Positions 13,480 through 20,412 of a DNA stretch of 51,967 nucleotides are shown piece after piece (positions within the stretch are counted from its first letter, which is position 1; each line of letters opens with the position of its first letter). The stretch covers positions 1 through 51,967 of the forward strand of contig NZ_JADEXG010000033.1 in the NCBI RefSeq assembly GCF_015207255.1, in the 5' to 3' direction. The stretch comes from Vasconcelosia minhoensis LEGE 07310. GTDB taxonomy: Bacteria > Cyanobacteriota > Cyanobacteriia > Phormidesmidales > Phormidesmidaceae. Under the pieces are notes generated by a model. It was not told the origin of the DNA. It did not search any database and saw nothing but the letters and a program-made list of their open reading frames with translations. A program made the position numbers and the translations under genes.

Positions 13480-13809
13480 ATGAAGTTGCCCAACGGAGAA
13501 GCTGCGGTTATTCCTATGGAAAAGCTCACAGGTTATTGTCTAAATCCCAATCACCCTTCTGGTAAACATAAAGCTAGAGTTTTCGCATCAGCATTGGGGA
13601 TCACAGCTGAGAATGCAGGCGATCTGCAAGAATTAATTGCAGAAGCTGCTATTGAGGGTGAGGTTATTCAGCAAGACAGAACTGAGTTTGGTCAATTGTA
13701 TAAGGTTGATTGGACAATACCTGGTCAAGTTCCTATTGTTTTACGCACGCTTTGGGAACTGACAACAGCTCAATCTAATCCTCGTTTAGTTTCTGCATTC
13801 ATTAGGTAA
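13480..13809 (+). CDS. DUF6883-domain protein, possible toxin-like partner of DUF4926
   Basis: 109 residues. It opens MKLPNGEAAVIPMEKLTGYC, then LNPNHPSGKHKARVFASALG and a C-terminal IVLRTLWELTT segment, the signature of DUF6883. Members often stand next to DUF4926 genes or at the C-terminus of large polymorphic toxins, which suggests an effector/immunity-type relation, but no activity is established. Conserved polar residues (N22, H24, H29, K30) could form an active site. The gene is visibly AT-richer than its neighbours, a sign of recent transfer. The next gene starts four bases after the stop. Confidence 0.75.
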   Translation: MKLPNGEAAVIPMEKLTGYCLNPNHPSGKHKARVFASALGITAENAGDLQELIAEAAIEGEVIQQDRTEFGQLYKVDWTIPGQVPIVLRTLWELTTAQSNPRLVSAFIR

Positions 13810-13813
13810 GTTT

Positions 13814-14074
13814 ATGGAAAGTTTGTCAGCCCTTGATACCATCGCAAACTTGCAGACAATTAGCCGCGATAGGCTCACTCTGGTAGAGCCGGAATATGAG
13901 TCCATTCAAGTGCTACCTATCGGACAAGTCGGCACTATTCTTGAGGTGTATCCCGGTGAGCTGCCTCGCTACCTGGTTGAATTTTCTGACCGTCAGGGGC
14001 GGGAATATGCTATGGCGGTGCTAAGATTCGACGAAATTCTGGCTCTTCATTACGAACTGAGCTTATCCAACTAA
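13814..14074 (+). CDS. DUF4926-domain protein, likely partner of the DUF6883 gene
   Basis: 86 residues. The core VLPIGQVGTILEVYPGELPRYLVEFSDRQG at about residues 32-61 is the small beta-barrel pattern of DUF4926, seen in short proteins encoded beside DUF6883 or other toxin-like genes. It has no membrane helix or DNA-binding motif. The N-terminal 25 residues are an extension. By position (four bases after the DUF6883 stop) it forms a two-gene operon. It may be an antidote or regulator by analogy, which is inference only. Confidence 0.75.
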   Translation: MESLSALDTIANLQTISRDRLTLVEPEYESIQVLPIGQVGTILEVYPGELPRYLVEFSDRQGREYAMAVLRFDEILALHYELSLSN

Positions 14075-14701: not shown

Positions 14702-17700
14702 TCATAAACTGAGTGTCGGGCGAGATTGGGCTGCTCTGGCTAACACTTCCGATTCGTCTAAGGGACTGGACGGGTGATAGGAAAAGCATAGGGGCGTGAG
14801 AATCTTTATTGGTGGCGTCAGAGTTTCCGAGACTGCATAAAACTGTCCTTTTTGCAGTGTAGCGATATCATGGCCGTCGCCGCCTCGCTGGCGGAGCTGA
14901 TCTTGCACAACGTTGATGGCCGAGGGAGAATTGGCCCGGCCATAGAACTGGGTCGAGCAGTTGGCGATGATATTATGATCGATGCTTTTGGGGGCTTGGG
15001 TTGCGAAAATGAGTCCTAAACCGTACTTGCGGGCCTGGGCGACTAGGCGAGAAAGGCTCGATTTACAGGGGGTGGATTGCTGCGAGGGGATAAAGTCTTT
15101 CGCTTCGTCGATCACCAGCAGTCCCCTGAGCGGCTGTCCGGGAAGGACAGGAATTTTCTTAATCCAGGTGAATAGCGTCATTGCCAGCTGATTCAGGAAC
15201 TGCTGCTGCTGCGTTAGGCCGGGCAAGCCGATGAGGCTGATGATAGAGAGCCGAGTGACTGGGGCATTAATTCCCAGGAGAACCGCCGGGTCGAGCGGGG
15301 CACCGCATTGGCGTAAAAGAGGATTATTGGCGATTTCGGCATTCAGCAAGTCGGCCATCTCTCTGGCTCGCTTGGGGGCATTGGCAATATTTCCGGAAGC
15401 CTCAGCGGGTAGCTCATTTAAGAATTCTGCCAGCCGCTCAAGGTTGCCGCCGCCGCTTTCCGCAAAATACTCCAGCGCATTTCTCAAAATTCCGCGTTTA
15501 ATTTTGGCCGAGGCTGCCCGTCCCGGCGCGACGATATCTTGTAGGCTGTCTCGGGCCATATCAATAGCCTGATTGAGCTCGTCAGCGTTATCTGAAAGGG
15601 CAGAAAAGTTGGGTAGCGGGTCCAGATTCATCGGATTACCGCCTTCGCGGCCCGGTGTCCAGATGACAGTGTTCGTCTGCTGGTGATAGCGTTCTGCTTT
15701 CAGCCGGTCTTGCTCAGTCCAGATACTGGGAGCGGTGGGCCAGCGATCGCCCATTCGAGACAGGTCATTGGCGCAGTCGATGATAATAGCCGGAATCCCC
15801 TGAAGCGCGGCTTCTTCCACCAGCCGCCTGACCAGCACGGTCTTACCCGTGCCGCTGCCCGCAAGCACCACGGTATGTTTAGTCAGCGACTCCAGCGGAA
15901 TGGATACGGTGTCTCCAACCTGGCTACCGAAATAGCGACTACCGATTGGTAATCCATTCAATCCAGCTTCTGAATCCGCACGATGCTCGGGTTCTCGATC
16001 GGAGGATGCTGAGGCTCCCCTGCCTGAAGAAGGTGCTTCATTCTTCTGGGGCCAGTCGGCACTGAAATCTGTTTCTATCAGTCCAGTCGTTTGAGCAGAC
16101 CCATTCTGGTGGGTGGTGACTGAACTAGTAGCAGCATCAAAGAACCAGCTCACTGTCTCTTGCATAAAGGCTAGCTGAGAGACGGGTCGTTTTTGCCGGA
16201 GCCAGCTCTCAAAGTCGGGTAGATTCTGCGCTTTGAGCTGATGCAAGGCCCCAATGACGCGCAGCTGATCTGAGGACGGATAGGCCAGGATGCCGCCTGC
16301 CTTTGAAAACTCCTGGGTTAGCCGCTGCGTCGCCGCTCCACCCGGAACGTCATGGGTTCTGATCAGCATTAGCCGCCGAAAGCTCAGCGCCTGGTCGATG
16401 CCAGCCGTCGTCATCGCGGCTTTCAGGCGAGTGCGATAGGCAGCATGGTGAGAACGCTGTAATGCTCGGAGGCACAGATGCTTTTCGCGATCGCCTTCTG
16501 CCCGGTAGACCAGCCGCAACCGCGCATGGAGCTGCGGATAGTTTTTGCCTCCTGGAAAATCGATATCCACAAGCGAATCGATGCTGTCTGCCGTGGGATT
16601 TTCTCTAATCAGGCACTCACCGGCAGTCTGTAGCCACTGGCCGAGAATATCATCTTCGTGACCTTCTTCAACGGCCTGGCTGATTTCAAGATTTTTCTGA
16701 ATGGATTGAAATTTCTGCTCAATGGAATTAAAGTCATGATTAATAACAGTCTTCGGCTCTGTTCTCGTAAATGAACGAAGCTCTGTAATTTCTGCGTTTG
16801 CTAAACACCGCTGGCGATGCTGCTCACAGCGCTGCAAAATTTTTCTGGGCGTCTGTCCCTGGGCCGCTTCGAAAAAGTCAGGGTGGAAAGGCCAGGTTGG
16901 GTAGGGTGGTTCAAGCTGATACTGTTGATAGGCGACTTGCAAACGCGATGCAATCAGTCGCGTCGCAATGTCCTGTTGAGAAACTGGCAGTAGCATTATC
17001 GGGACTTTGAATCGATCCTGAAAGGACCGTACCACCTTCTTACAGAGCATATCCCAGGTGATGCGTAGGCATGAGACGATGGTCAGCGTTTTTGAAGTGC
17101 TCTCGTGCAGCGCCATTAAGCCACCGCCGATCCCTTCAATGATCGACTGTGAAACCTGCTGTTCTAAGACAGTACTTTCCTCAGTAGAAGCACCGCTGGC
17201 ATAGCAGTGCTGAGCGACAATCGAATCGATCTGGTCCAACGCCAAAATCCAGTGAGATTGAAGGCTCAAAATCCAGGATAGCCCTTTCACAATCTCGCTT
17301 AAGTTTGTCTTTAACGCAGTTTTAAACCCAAACTGCTGCTTAGCAGATGGCTCAATCTCTAGACCGCTGAGCCAGGAATATCCAATATCTGAGAAGCCGA
17401 AATCATCCGAGTTGAGTAGTAACAAAGCTCTAATCACGTCCTGGTACTGACTAGTAGCATTTCTATCCTTCTCACTAACTGCCTTCAAAACCGCATTAAT
17501 ACCCTTGTTTAGCACTTCAGCAGAGAGATCAGATATTTGCTCAGCAGAGACATTGTGACGACCGGTCAGATCAACTAAATACTTGACAATCCGTTTCAGT
17601 TGAAACTGCGAAATTCCCTCTTCGCTATCTTCTCGCAGAGAGCTGATATAGCCTTGTAGAACGGTTTCCCAAAAATAGCGGACATCGGTCATATCCACCA

Positions 17701-17980
17701 AAACAAAGCCAATTCCCTGGGCCATTGCCTGCTGACGAATGGCCGACAGTAAATGGGTTTTCCCAGTCCCCGGATCCCCACCAACAACCTGCCCTAGAGG
17801 CGACTCAGCGCTATTGGATGCCTGGAGCTGTTTAGCGGCGGTGATGATCTGAGATCGCGCCTGTCCATGCAAATCACTAATGTCAAACGCGGGCGGATTC
17901 CAGATGCTTTTGACGTGAGTCGTCCAGCTAAAATCGACGGTTTGCAGCGCTTGCAGAAATTTGTCAGACCCAGCGAGCAT
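14702..17980 (-). CDS. Double-ATPase protein: AAA/ORC-like domain plus HerA-like (DUF87) domain
   Basis: 1092 residues. N-terminal module: Walker A GGDPGTGKTH at 67-76 and Walker B ILALDQID at 245-252, with an ORC/AAA-like layout. Residues about 400-650 form a linker region of unclear fold. C-terminal module: HerA/DUF87 Walker A AGSGTGKT at 707-714, strand IIIDCANDLS, Walker B LLVIDEAKDF at 954-963 and sensor FATQAPKSID at 992-1001. HerA-type ATPases form hexamers that pump or unwind DNA, usually with a nuclease partner. It is the last gene of a tight minus-strand operon, two bases after the winged-helix gene, with a DUF559 nuclease gene at the head. That context suggests a DNA-targeting defence or repair machine. 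No exact family name is known to me. Confidence 0.8.
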   Translation of the reverse strand: MLAGSDKFLQALQTVDFSWTTHVKSIWNPPAFDISDLHGQARSQIITAAKQLQASNSAESPLGQVVGGDPGTGKTHLLSAIRQQAMAQGIGFVLVDMTDVRYFWETVLQGYISSLREDSEEGISQFQLKRIVKYLVDLTGRHNVSAEQISDLSAEVLNKGINAVLKAVSEKDRNATSQYQDVIRALLLLNSDDFGFSDIGYSWLSGLEIEPSAKQQFGFKTALKTNLSEIVKGLSWILSLQSHWILALDQIDSIVAQHCYASGASTEESTVLEQQVSQSIIEGIGGGLMALHESTSKTLTIVSCLRITWDMLCKKVVRSFQDRFKVPIMLLPVSQQDIATRLIASRLQVAYQQYQLEPPYPTWPFHPDFFEAAQGQTPRKILQRCEQHRQRCLANAEITELRSFTRTEPKTVINHDFNSIEQKFQSIQKNLEISQAVEEGHEDDILGQWLQTAGECLIRENPTADSIDSLVDIDFPGGKNYPQLHARLRLVYRAEGDREKHLCLRALQRSHHAAYRTRLKAAMTTAGIDQALSFRRLMLIRTHDVPGGAATQRLTQEFSKAGGILAYPSSDQLRVIGALHQLKAQNLPDFESWLRQKRPVSQLAFMQETVSWFFDAATSSVTTHQNGSAQTTGLIETDFSADWPQKNEAPSSGRGASASSDREPEHRADSEAGLNGLPIGSRYFGSQVGDTVSIPLESLTKHTVVLAGSGTGKTVLVRRLVEEAALQGIPAIIIDCANDLSRMGDRWPTAPSIWTEQDRLKAERYHQQTNTVIWTPGREGGNPMNLDPLPNFSALSDNADELNQAIDMARDSLQDIVAPGRAASAKIKRGILRNALEYFAESGGGNLERLAEFLNELPAEASGNIANAPKRAREMADLLNAEIANNPLLRQCGAPLDPAVLLGINAPVTRLSIISLIGLPGLTQQQQFLNQLAMTLFTWIKKIPVLPGQPLRGLLVIDEAKDFIPSQQSTPCKSSLSRLVAQARKYGLGLIFATQAPKSIDHNIIANCSTQFYGRANSPSAINVVQDQLRQRGGDGHDIATLQKGQFYAVSETLTPPIKILTPLCFSYHPSSPLDESEVLARAAQSRPTLSL

Positions 17981-17982
17981 AG

Positions 17983-18648
17983 TTAATTTTGGATATAAAT
18001 AAAGTACCGTTTTTCGCCATCGCCCAGATCAATGGCGGCCTGCTCATCCTCAGGGCCAATGTCCTGGGGATATTCCATGGGCATTAGATATATTTCCCCG
18101 GACCGCTGCATTGATCGAAGCGCATCGTCGAGAGATTGAGGTTCAACGGGCTTAAAATGCTGGCGCAGCTGCTTTAGGCGGATGCCGAGGCCAGCGCTAT
18201 TCTGACTGGCCTGCGCATAGGCTTTACGAATTTCATCTTTTAGACTATCGGGCTTGGGGATTTCGGCTGGGGGCGGTTCGATGCTGACTTCGGTGGAGGC
18301 TGAGTCTGCCAGCAGGTCTGCGATGGGGATATTGTGCGATCGCAGATAATGCCCCAGCTTCATCAGCAGCGTTTGAAAAACCGGGATTGCCGTAGTCGCC
18401 GTGGCTGGGAACTTCACCGTAAAGTCTTCTGACCCAATTCGCTCAGATACCCAATCCCAAGCTTTATCTTCGAGGACAAGATGCTTGGCCTGACCGCGTT
18501 TCTCCAACCGAATCAGCCCCGTATTGACCAAAGTACGGCGCTCCGTTGGATTCAGACCAGGCTTGACCTTGGACATCATCGGCTCGTCGCCCGTAATCAG
18601 GAGGTTCCAAATCACTAACTCCTGTTTGGGCTTCAGCGGCTCATTCAC
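17983..18648 (-). CDS. Winged-helix-like accessory protein of the ATPase/nuclease operon
   Basis: 221 residues, no membrane helix. Residues about 5-70 (KPKQELVIWNLLITGDEPMM, LNPTERRTLVNTGLI, HLVLEDKAWDWV) have the helix-turn-strand rhythm of a winged helix. Residues about 155-221 (LGIRLKQLRQHF, SLDDALRSMQRSGEIYLMP, then a beta hairpin ending RYFIYIQN) look like a second one. Between them lie a helix and a Pro-rich linker. I do not recognise a named family. It sits between the nuclease gene (13-base gap) and the ATPase gene (two-base gap), so it is probably a DNA-binding or adaptor subunit of the same complex. Confidence 0.7.
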   Translation of the reverse strand: MNEPLKPKQELVIWNLLITGDEPMMSKVKPGLNPTERRTLVNTGLIRLEKRGQAKHLVLEDKAWDWVSERIGSEDFTVKFPATATTAIPVFQTLLMKLGHYLRSHNIPIADLLADSASTEVSIEPPPAEIPKPDSLKDEIRKAYAQASQNSAGLGIRLKQLRQHFKPVEPQSLDDALRSMQRSGEIYLMPMEYPQDIGPEDEQAAIDLGDGEKRYFIYIQN

Positions 18649-18661
18649 ACAGTTACCTCAC

Positions 18662-19741
18662 TCAATGTCTGTTGGCAAAGTCGGTTGGCAAAGACAGTTG
18701 ACGGCGACGGTAGCGCACCACGTCGCGGATTTTTTCGACAGCGACCTCCACATCGGCCATGACCTGATCGTGGGGCAGCCTCAAGACAACGTAGCCGCTG
18801 ATTAACAGTTCGTAATCGCGCTGCCGGTCTTGAGCAAACCCAAACTGATTGCCATGATGGCGATACCCGTCTATTTCCACTACGACTCGGCCTTCCGCCC
18901 AGAGTAAATCTACTATGTACGGGCTCAGTTTCACAGTTTTGACGGACTGATTGAAATGAAATAGGGTTGCTAGCTCAGTATCTTTGGCCAGCCACTCCGC
19001 CAGCTTTTGCTCACCAGGGCTAAACGGATGCGGCTTGCCGTGAATGGGGAATACGGTGTGCTTGGCCTCTACCGCCTGGGGTGAAGCAACTGACGCAGCA
19101 GTTGAAGCAAATCGATTTGCTCCATAGAGCACCGAATCTAGTTCGCTGGCCGTTGATAAGTCTTCAGAGATAAATAGGGCAATCCGAGCCTGGGACTGGT
19201 CGGCCAGCCAGCTGACAGCTTTGGCCAGCCCCAATAGTCGATGTTCTAAAGGGGCAGTGTCCTCGATCACGATGGCCAGCACCAGGCAGGCCGGGTCGAT
19301 GGCAAGGGAGAGCTGAGCCAGCTGCAAGCCGTGGGGAAAAGCCTTCAGCACAGGTATCTTTCCTTTCTGATGAGCCCTTAAGGCGGCTTTTAGCCAAGGT
19401 TGACACAGCCCCTCAAGCTTTTCCTGAAGTGCTAAGGCACTGTACCGATTTAGCAGGGCATCTGTCGCTGTATTATCTGAACTCACAAATGAACCCGGCT
19501 GGTACCAGTCTGGCCACAGCTCAAATGCCACCTCGGCAAGCGTGGCAACAATGTCCTCAATCATTTGCGCTTGCTCTGGCAGCTGCTTCCAGGTCTGCGT
19601 CACGACTCGGCAGTTGTGAACCGGTTCCCAGTCAGCCGAGAGGAGCTGGCCCAGAGCATCTACCGCACTACCGCAGAGAAATGTTTGCACATGGCCGGGC
19701 TGAAGCGAAGTCAGGGCTTTGTTTAAGGCGCATTCAGACAT
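18662..19741 (-). CDS. DUF559/Vsr-like endonuclease-domain protein
   Basis: 359 residues. The C-terminal 120 residues carry a PD-(D/E)xK-type nuclease core: GEQKLAEWL (E244), SPYIVDLLW (D278), VVVEIDGYRHH (E289, D291) and DRQRDYELLISGYVVLRLPH at 305-324. This is the DUF559 layout related to the Vsr mismatch nuclease. Residues 1-230 are a helical and alpha/beta region I cannot assign; CLVLAIVIEDTAPLEHRLLG and QARIALFISEDL look like strands of a second alpha/beta fold. It is the first gene of the three-gene operon, and translation of the set is likely coupled. The probable role is to cut DNA chosen or translocated by the HerA-like ATPase. Confidence 0.8.
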   Translation of the reverse strand: MSECALNKALTSLQPGHVQTFLCGSAVDALGQLLSADWEPVHNCRVVTQTWKQLPEQAQMIEDIVATLAEVAFELWPDWYQPGSFVSSDNTATDALLNRYSALALQEKLEGLCQPWLKAALRAHQKGKIPVLKAFPHGLQLAQLSLAIDPACLVLAIVIEDTAPLEHRLLGLAKAVSWLADQSQARIALFISEDLSTASELDSVLYGANRFASTAASVASPQAVEAKHTVFPIHGKPHPFSPGEQKLAEWLAKDTELATLFHFNQSVKTVKLSPYIVDLLWAEGRVVVEIDGYRHHGNQFGFAQDRQRDYELLISGYVVLRLPHDQVMADVEVAVEKIRDVVRYRRRQLSLPTDFANRH

Positions 19742-19884: not shown

Positions 19885-20280
19885 TTAAGTTTCGACGACC
19901 TGGGTTGAAAGTCCTACAGTCTTACCGTCTTCAGTCCGGCCTAGAATGTAGACCTCAATTTCGACCGTACCCACTCGATAGACCCTTGGCTCGGCTAGGT
20001 TAGCCTGAAGCAGGCTGACCAGCTGGCGATAGCGATTTACTCGCTCGGCCTCAGCGGCATCGTGCCAGTCTCTGGCTGCGATCGCCGATGCAAAAAACTG
20101 CTCCAGCGACTCTGTTTCTACCGGCGTGTCAGCTGGTCGGCCGATATGGGCGAGCAGCTGTGGGGGGCTCAGCGGCGCATCCCAGCAGACCGACGTTAGG
20201 GGATAGTCGGTTTCACTCGACCAGAGCAAGTCTTGGCAGACGGACTGAAGCTGGAGCACCAGGCTTTCAGCAGTCGGCAT
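19885..20280 (-). CDS. nuiA: NuiA-like nuclease A inhibitor
   Basis: 131 residues. It follows the Anabaena NuiA pattern end to end: LLWSSETDYPLTSVCWD early, FFASAIAARDWHDAAEAERV in the middle, LLQANLAEPRVYRVGTVEIE and the C-terminus GLSTQVVET. NuiA blocks the sugar-non-specific nuclease NucA by filling its active site with its C-terminal residues. No nucA is in this window. Start chosen at the ATG at 20278-20280, with GGGAG eight bases upstream; the longer frame to 20343 is less likely. It is on the same strand as, and 143 bases upstream of, the DUF559 nuclease operon, so it may be read into that operon. Confidence 0.88.
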   Translation of the reverse strand: MPTAESLVLQLQSVCQDLLWSSETDYPLTSVCWDAPLSPPQLLAHIGRPADTPVETESLEQFFASAIAARDWHDAAEAERVNRYRQLVSLLQANLAEPRVYRVGTVEIEVYILGRTEDGKTVGLSTQVVET

Positions 20281-20412
20281 GGCCATAGCTCCCATCTGAA
20301 ATTTTCGGCTGGGTTCCCTCAAAGGATACAGGTTTCTGTCCATCGGGCTGATTATGCTTCGAATGGCGAATATTATATTCGCTCACTCTGTAGACCTGTA
20401 TTCTAAACTCCC

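Follow-up and report, generated by a model that had tools for sequence, protein, structure and literature searches.

A DUF559 nuclease, a small adaptor and a fused ORC-HerA double ATPase form a conserved operon and a candidate anti-invader system in cyanobacteria and beyond

INTRODUCTION

A class of systems predicted computationally by Rakesh, Aravind and Krishnan (Nucleic Acids Research 2024; PMC10853773) combines, as outlined in the main text of that paper, an Orc/CDC6 ATPase, an inactive and an active restriction endonuclease (REase), a HerA/FtsK motor and a winged helix-turn-helix (wHTH) component, carried on single or multiple polypeptides. According to the same outline, the inactive REase is inserted between the AAA core and the C-terminal wHTH, the active REase comes from one of two families, one in common with AbiJ, some members fuse a 3'-5' exonuclease to the motor, and some HerA/FtsK proteins contain an inserted helical bundle. 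The same ORC theme has been described for systems related to bacteriophage exclusion (BREX), the BREX ATPase being presented as an ORC-clade AAA+ protein (PMC12839542). Here we analyze a three-gene operon from the cyanobacterium Vasconcelosia minhoensis LEGE 07310, located in a stretch of 51,967 nucleotides (contig NZ_JADEXG010000033.1, C130 in our numbering) that is referred to as the window throughout. The operon encodes a DUF559 nuclease, a small adaptor and a protein with two ATPase modules, and we estimate at about 60% the probability that these three components make up an anti-invader system driven by ATP and belonging to the predicted ORC-HerA “capture” kind.

HerA-NurA, HerA-DUF4297 and HerA-Sir2 resemble the window operon in that they join a HerA-type motor to an effector partner; they consist of two genes, their effectors have other folds, and none of them is known to have an ORC module or an adaptor. 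By its design, the nearest experimentally tested three-gene relative is SspFGH, a restriction module in which SspF is a Walker A protein and SspH is FtsK-like; its anti-phage activity is experimentally established. As described in PMC8092258, it needs phosphorothioate self-marking by SspABCD and differs in this from the window operon. DndFGH also brings together a HerA/FtsK motor, a restriction nuclease and a wHTH protein, as summarized in the main text of PMC10853773.

RESULTS

Layout of the operon and its nuclease

The three genes occupy 5 kb on the minus strand of the window, in a genome of 5.26 Mb, and have their nearest relatives in Leptolyngbya-like cyanobacteria. The nuclease gene (359 residues, 18662-19741, ATG start) is followed after 13 bases by the adaptor gene (221 residues, 17983-18648, GTG start) and after another 2 bases by the double-ATPase gene (1092 residues, 14702-17980, ATG start). 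Scans compared with shuffled sequence gave no clear excess of promoter-like sites (2 observed, 4.0 expected) or terminator-like sites (7 observed, 5.5 expected), so the operon call relies on spacing, strand and conservation.

The nuclease consists of an N-terminal region (residues 1 to about 240) and a DUF559 nuclease core (residues about 241-345; 18707-19021, minus strand), which holds the invariant residues of the seven homologues. Pfam places DUF559 (PF04480) at residues 269-342 (E = 7.3e-12; 45.6 bits, with a curated cut-off of 20.6), and a profile built from seven sequences matches the “Endonuclease-Like Protein” of PDB entry 3hrl (E = 1.6e-8). E244, D278, E289, D291, H295, D305, R306 and D309 are identical in 7/7 aligned nucleases. 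With a score over the cut-off and its acidic catalytic residues kept, the protein belongs to the DUF559 family and is apparently an active PD-(D/E)XK-like nuclease. Four more DUF559-type stretches, matched in the nuclease core only, are found in the window's own genome on contigs C49, C51, C54 and C147.

An ORC-like module and a HerA/FtsK-type motor on one chain

Four regions can be distinguished in the 1092-residue protein, all encoded on the minus strand: an ORC-like AAA+ module (residues about 20-400; 16781-17923), a middle domain (residues about 425-615; 16136-16708), a variable, gappy linker between the two ATPase modules (residues about 616-675; 15956-16135) and a HerA/FtsK-type motor module (residues about 676-1085; 14726-15955). 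The first module matches Pfam AAA_22 at residues 65-125 (E = 1.4e-10) and AAA_16 (E = 1.9e-8), which at the level of sequence shows it to be AAA+; its ORC clade we infer from the accompanying genes and from BrxC/BrxD-like matches. The second module matches Pfam DUF87 at residues 691-800 (E = 3e-9) and, in a profile search, HerA structures (E = 2.1e-11). Its conservation is high: the P-loop G708-T714, the acidic pair D958-E959, R984 and Q995 are kept in 7/7 ATPases, as are D249-Q250-x-D252 and R323-F324 of the first module, the P-loop of which (G68-T75) is conserved in the 6/6 aligned rows that reach it. From their positions, as described for the HerA/FtsK clade in the main text of PMC10853773, R984 and Q995 would be the arginine finger and the Q sensor-1. 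Two hallmarks of the capture class, an Orc/CDC6-type AAA+ ATPase and a HerA/FtsK motor (Walker motifs, predicted arginine finger and Q sensor-1), are found together in this one window protein.

These results agree with much of a first-pass annotation of the DNA made from its letters and open reading frames (ORFs) only. The ORF coordinates confirm the tight minus-strand operon that it described, its DUF559-like core with E244, D278, E289 and D291 was borne out by both the Pfam score and the seven aligned sequences, the two pairs of Walker A and Walker B motifs lie where it had put them, and the second module is indeed of the HerA/DUF87 type. A missing nuclease-fold match, which it had named as grounds for abandoning its proposal, did not occur, given the DUF559 and 3hrl matches.

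The same features bear on an alternative explanation of the operon, namely, abortive infection. Here the two-ATPase protein would sense invasion and free the DUF559 nuclease, and the infected cell would die by destruction of its own DNA, with no selective pumping and cutting of the DNA of the invader. Such an alarm would suit a nuclease core drawn from a broad family with no obvious specificity domain, as well as the weak scores that STAND/NACHT-type models give to the ORC-like module of the window or the Methylobacterium protein; in addition, when no self-mark is linked to it, the motor would need to be kept off host DNA. However, the fully conserved motor features R984, Q995, P-loop and D958-E959 would be superfluous in a pure sensor, and we regard this explanation as unlikely.

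The trio keeps its order across three phyla

An argument for a functional unit, whether of the capture kind or another, comes from recurrence. All 8/8 loci with a full-length ATPase relative hold the same three genes in the same order; they comprise five cyanobacterial genomes together with Nonomuraea, Methylobacterium and Tsukamurella, and thus span three phyla. ATPase relatives with 59-64% identity are found in Leptolyngbyaceae cyanobacterium RM1_1_2, Leptolyngbya sp. Heron Island J, Leptolyngbya sp. PCC 7375 and Nodosilinea sp. P-1105, and the order nuclease, adaptor, ATPase is kept in the first three. One of the five cyanobacterial genomes (G411) has the operon split by a contig end: one contig ends with the nuclease, the adaptor and profile positions 7-170 of the ATPase, and another carries positions 168-1093. 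In PCC 7375 the ATPase gene (L035, 12931-14828) is broken by a DDE transposase gene, and the other genes of the trio are intact. Outside the cyanobacteria, where the distribution is that seen in a plasmid collection (PLSDB; three of six matching records full-length, the other three matching only the HerA end), the ATPases of Nonomuraea gerenzanensis, Methylobacterium aquaticum and Tsukamurella tyrosinosolvens showed 33-34% identity over 92-99% coverage in tblastn and 32-36% identity in the alignment. Profiles built from the cyanobacterial proteins identified the two genes directly upstream of these ATPases as the nuclease (E ≤ 8.4e-18) and the adaptor (E ≤ 1.9e-12).

That the parts are present, conserved and inherited together is a matter of direct observation, and by its sequences the trio is a real three-part nuclease-motor unit. 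The proposal of the first-pass annotation that the three proteins act as one unit gains support from this agreement in content, order and strand, and the outcome that it had set against itself, homologues lying mostly outside a conserved neighborhood, was not seen at any of the eight loci.

Within the cyanobacteria the distribution is patchy. The ATPase was found in 5/63 genomes of the order (E up to 1e-100); in a sample of the phylum, 70/386 genomes match some part of it and 2/386 (the window's genome and G215) match both modules, the remaining matches, among those listed, covering one module each. The GC content at third codon positions (GC3) of the trio lies below the mean of the neighboring ORFs for 12/12 genes at 4/4 cyanobacterial loci: 0.55-0.59 versus 0.66 (standard deviation, 0.06) in the window, 0.33-0.35 versus 0.49 (0.06) in PCC 7375 and, less clearly, 0.42-0.49 versus 0.55 (0.04) in RM1_1_2. 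No ATPase relative was found in viral contigs or, with the Methylobacterium protein as query, in phage genomes. Judged by these distributions, the trio looks mobile and self-complete.

We also estimated the ratio of nonsynonymous to synonymous substitution rates (dN/dS), for which 20 of the 27 gene pairs were saturated at synonymous sites. Heron Island J and PCC 7375, the pair of greatest similarity, gave 0.13 for the nuclease, 0.19 for the adaptor and 0.12 for the ATPase (before the break), so that the adaptor had the highest value of the three genes in this one well-measured pair. Together with the recurrence of the trio, these values speak against a chance arrangement. Two other adaptor pairs gave 0.15-0.16, and nuclease pairs gave 0.40 for the window versus Nonomuraea (dS, 2.2) and 0.69 for Nonomuraea versus Tsukamurella (dS, 1.0).

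The distribution also helps to judge whether the operon could instead serve the host chromosome, as a DNA repair or end-processing machine working in the manner of HerA-NurA and not directed against invaders. A part in DNA end resection has been reported for HerA-NurA (PMC12977600), the window ATPase weakly matches HerA repair-helicase models of NCBIfam, and the flanks of the loci are not rich in defense genes. A housekeeping role, however, fits poorly with presence in 5/63 genomes, low GC3, scatter over three phyla and a broken copy, which makes this possibility quite improbable and leaves the capture system as our preferred explanation.

Related operons suggest a shared adaptor-ORC core

Distant relatives of the N-terminal ATPase module occur across many cyanobacteria, and their neighborhoods define two further operon types, whose domain names rest on one representative each. 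Type B consists of an adaptor of ~227 residues, an ORC-like protein of ~640 residues and a nuclease protein of ~490 residues, the representative of which matches DUF1802 (E = 6.1e-38) and, with 20.9 bits, falls just below the cut-off of 21.0 for Mrr_cat. Type C consists of an adaptor of ~277 residues, an ORC-like protein of ~680 residues and a motor-nuclease of ~865 residues, with 3'-5' exonuclease, PDDEXK_1, FtsK_alpha and FtsK domains in its representative. The adaptor-ORC-DUF1802/Mrr arrangement was present at 18/19 fetched type B loci and adaptor-ORC-FtsK at 14/20 fetched type C loci; these fractions are not prevalences, as the former were taken from the best-scoring and a few lower matches to the N-terminal half of the ATPase and the latter from matches to a HerA model, three of them chosen for both genes having already been seen close together. 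At the type B exception (L056) only the ORC gene is present; of the 14 type C loci, one is truncated by the end of its contig and another has an additional gene in between. At two of the 18 type B loci the ORC frame is split into two ORFs (L040, 9033-11009; L053, 7839-9778), which are perhaps decaying copies. Homologues of the type C motor-nuclease also occur with no adaptor and ORC genes beside them (L091, 6837-9473; L092, 6620-9241), the L091 protein having exonuclease, PDDEXK_1, FtsK_alpha and FtsK domains.

Profile comparisons with hhalign, run alongside 18 decoys (12 unrelated families and 6 reversed profiles), tied the window operon to both types. The ORC module of the window reached 99.7% with the type B and 99.5% with the type C ORC-like proteins, one unrelated decoy family reaching 76.5%. 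The adaptor profile reached 91% (score, 49) with type B and 96% (score, 65) with type C adaptors, the highest decoy score being 20. By this measure the window adaptor is homologous to those of both cyanobacterial operon types. An earlier run of the ORC and adaptor comparisons, with four cyanobacterial sequences only, had given 99.3%, 98.7%, 86.7% and 65.9%. Taken together, these similarities suggest a common adaptor-ORC core with exchangeable effectors, of which the window type would be the form with an ORC-HerA fusion and a DUF559 nuclease.

For the adaptor itself the first-pass annotation had proposed a winged-helix-like protein. Its homologies and the sub-threshold winged-helix matches of its relatives (DUF6293_C at 0.0011 in the Methylobacterium protein and SelB-wing_2 at 0.05 in a type B adaptor) are consistent with this, whereas the window protein itself has no Pfam match up to an E value of 1.

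How the operon compares with described systems

Like the capture systems of PMC10853773, as outlined in its main text, the window operon brings an Orc-like AAA+ ATPase, a HerA/FtsK motor, a nuclease and a small adaptor together; unlike that outline, it fuses ORC and HerA on one chain and bears a DUF559 nuclease. The motor-fused 3'-5' exonuclease of the published class has its counterpart in the type C relatives and not in the window operon. DUF559 is not named in the main text of PMC10853773, the supplement of which may list the trio; our literature search found no paper naming both DUF87 and DUF559, and among papers naming DUF559 no title on such a system. The first-pass annotation had put the system forward as a candidate undescribed one. 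In favor of this, the trio is not named by any model of PADLOC 2023 or NCBIfam; in the broad sense the label is not supported, as a published computational class covers the parts list, at least in the outline of PMC10853773. Our reading is that the operon is a variant of the published ORC-HerA class, fused and armed with DUF559, and not a wholly undescribed system, and overall the interpretation given in the first-pass annotation is partly supported.

Other named systems fit less well. We rejected an identification with SspFGH, as the window proteins have no PADLOC match to SspF or SspH up to an E value of 1 and DndC does not exceed its cut-off in the trio-bearing cyanobacterial genomes; the type C representative matches SspH at 9.5e-66 and SspF at 3.2e-5. 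Across the five trio-bearing cyanobacterial genomes DndC was over the cut-off in none and sub-threshold in three, the SspB and SspD models not being part of this search. DndH is much larger than the window ATPase and multidomain, and its PADLOC models match the latter weakly (E = 0.004 and 0.036). Pfam finds no NurA, DUF4297 or Sir2 domain in the three window proteins, and the ATPase scores far under the cut-offs of the HerA models in NCBIfam. A likeness to BREX is seen in weak BrxC/BrxD matches of the ATPase (Pfam E = 0.00032; PADLOC, 2.4e-5); PglZ, PglX/BrxX and BrxL, which would mark a BREX system, were found neither in the operon nor among the scanned flanking proteins.

A match of the window ATPase to mad8 (4.5e-32) made the methylation-associated defense system (MADS) a candidate, which we rejected. 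The PADLOC-DB model concerned (PDLC04140) matches 386/386 cyanobacterial genomes and 14/14 controls (E up to 1e-8) as well as an ABC transporter at 4.7e-24, so a lone mad8 match is not evidence of MADS, and the operon has no other mad match. The strongest match to this model (4.7e-45), found in the window's family, lies at the C-terminal end of a 1848-residue protein (L087, 8747-14293, minus strand) with no Pfam family up to an E value of 0.001; an adjoining ORF of 1030 residues resembles, by eye, a protein kinase.

Flanking genes differ from locus to locus

Neighbor clustering, for which genes were called simply as longest ORFs, and gene listings revealed no fourth gene common to the loci, nor a modification gene linked to the trio in common across them. 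The window flanks encode an aldolase, a methyltransferase, a photolyase and an amidase, those of RM1_1_2 MnmG and a short-chain dehydrogenase, and those of Nonomuraea an ABC transporter and a subtilase. We scanned 30 selected flanking proteins from seven loci with PADLOC, in three sets of 10. The first set gave no match (0/10) and the second one weak mad2 match (3e-4) to a neighboring small methyltransferase; in the third, an ABC transporter, a subtilase (IetS, 2.6e-12) and a DEAD-box helicase matched general ATPase, protease and helicase models, the IetA partner not being part of the search.

These neighborhoods speak to a further explanation, in which the ORC/TnsC-like ATPase and a TnsA-like nuclease would belong to a mobile element and serve transposition or plasmid transfer. 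The signs of horizontal spread would agree with it, and the main text of PMC10853773 includes transposase ATPases in the ORC/CDC6 family and describes HerA/FtsK motors that pump conjugative DNA. Against this, a Pfam scan of 10 proteins flanking the window operon found no transposase, recombinase or relaxase, no fourth gene is shared, and the transposase gene of PCC 7375 sits inside the ATPase gene and disrupts it. We consider a role of this kind very improbable, the most so of the three alternatives, all of which we rank below a capture system.

A gene for a protein resembling the nuclease A inhibitor NuiA (19885-20343, minus strand; Pfam E = 8.3e-43) lies on the same strand as the trio, 143 bases upstream of the nuclease gene. 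We rejected it as a fourth operon gene: it is missing from the flanks listed for the other cyanobacterial loci, and for this reason is probably unrelated. On the other side of the operon, two small adjoining genes on the plus strand (13480-14074), 4 bases apart, encode DUF6883 (3.2e-26) and DUF4926 (9e-11) proteins and are possibly a two-gene module of their own. The trio of Tsukamurella tyrosinosolvens NCTC13231 (L114, 5937-15716) lies within a run of ribosomal protein genes, between rplN and rpsQ, with an adjoining VapB-PIN pair and a DEAD-box helicase. Two PLSDB records filed as plasmids, NZ_LT559118.1 and NZ_LR134464.1, look chromosomal, since one is 11.85 Mb long and the other carries ribosomal protein genes.

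DISCUSSION

If the operon is a capture system, loading of the complex would fall to the adaptor and the ORC-like module, which would pick out either foreign DNA or DNA distinguished by its state (entering, replicating or free-ended). The HerA module would form a ring and pump this DNA, and the DUF559 nuclease, docked through its own N-terminal region, would cut it as it is threaded. Self would probably be spared by DNA state or topology and not by a mark made by the operon, given that the trio has no linked gene for a methylase or another modification enzyme. Complex formation, ring assembly, pumping and target choice are steps predicted from domain content and position, as is the role in defense.

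Several points weigh against this proposal. Its mechanism draws on sequence for both function and protein-protein interaction, and AlphaFold2 models built from four sequences were unusable for the nuclease (mean predicted local distance difference test [pLDDT] score, 43.3) and the ATPase (34.9). Its weakest point is the adaptor, a putative winged-helix protein: the top PDB match of its profile is a glutamate racemase (0.13), with the MarR-type ZitR second (0.15), and two other adaptor relatives gave unrelated weak matches, the matches outside the winged-helix fold being as strong as those to it. The middle domain of the ATPase occupies the position of the inactive REase in the published class and is collinear with its type B counterpart, but the similarity is not significant (4.3%; score, 23.7; best decoy, 18.7) and that to type C (0.2%; score, 13.9) is below the decoys, so an inactive REase is not established there. 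The flanking genes are ordinary, with no defense island demonstrated. Finally, N6-methylase genes are present elsewhere in 4/5 trio-bearing cyanobacterial genomes, so that a self-mark could come from an unlinked locus; G215 holds neither DndC nor an N6-methylase at E values up to 1e-10.

It is tempting to go one step further and picture a stand-alone restriction machine, in which an ORC loader and a HerA pump, as stacked motors on one chain, feed the DUF559 nuclease and the state of the DNA alone marks the invader, this being one of several effector-swapping versions of an adaptor-ORC chassis in cyanobacteria and beyond. We put this forward tentatively, as a possibility more doubtful than the capture system as such.

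ORC-HerA capture systems are so far known as predictions, and among the top-ranked papers of our literature search we found no experimental study of one. Their parts list has already been published in outline; what the window operon adds is a compact, fused DUF559 form that is a good test case, practical in that the trio is small, constant in composition over three phyla and equipped with clear catalytic residues that can be mutated. With it one could test the idea that invader DNA is intercepted and pumped into a nuclease without a modification-based mark of self, and the comparison with type B and type C operons suggests that cyanobacteria may have built on the same adaptor-ORC core with nucleases that can be exchanged.

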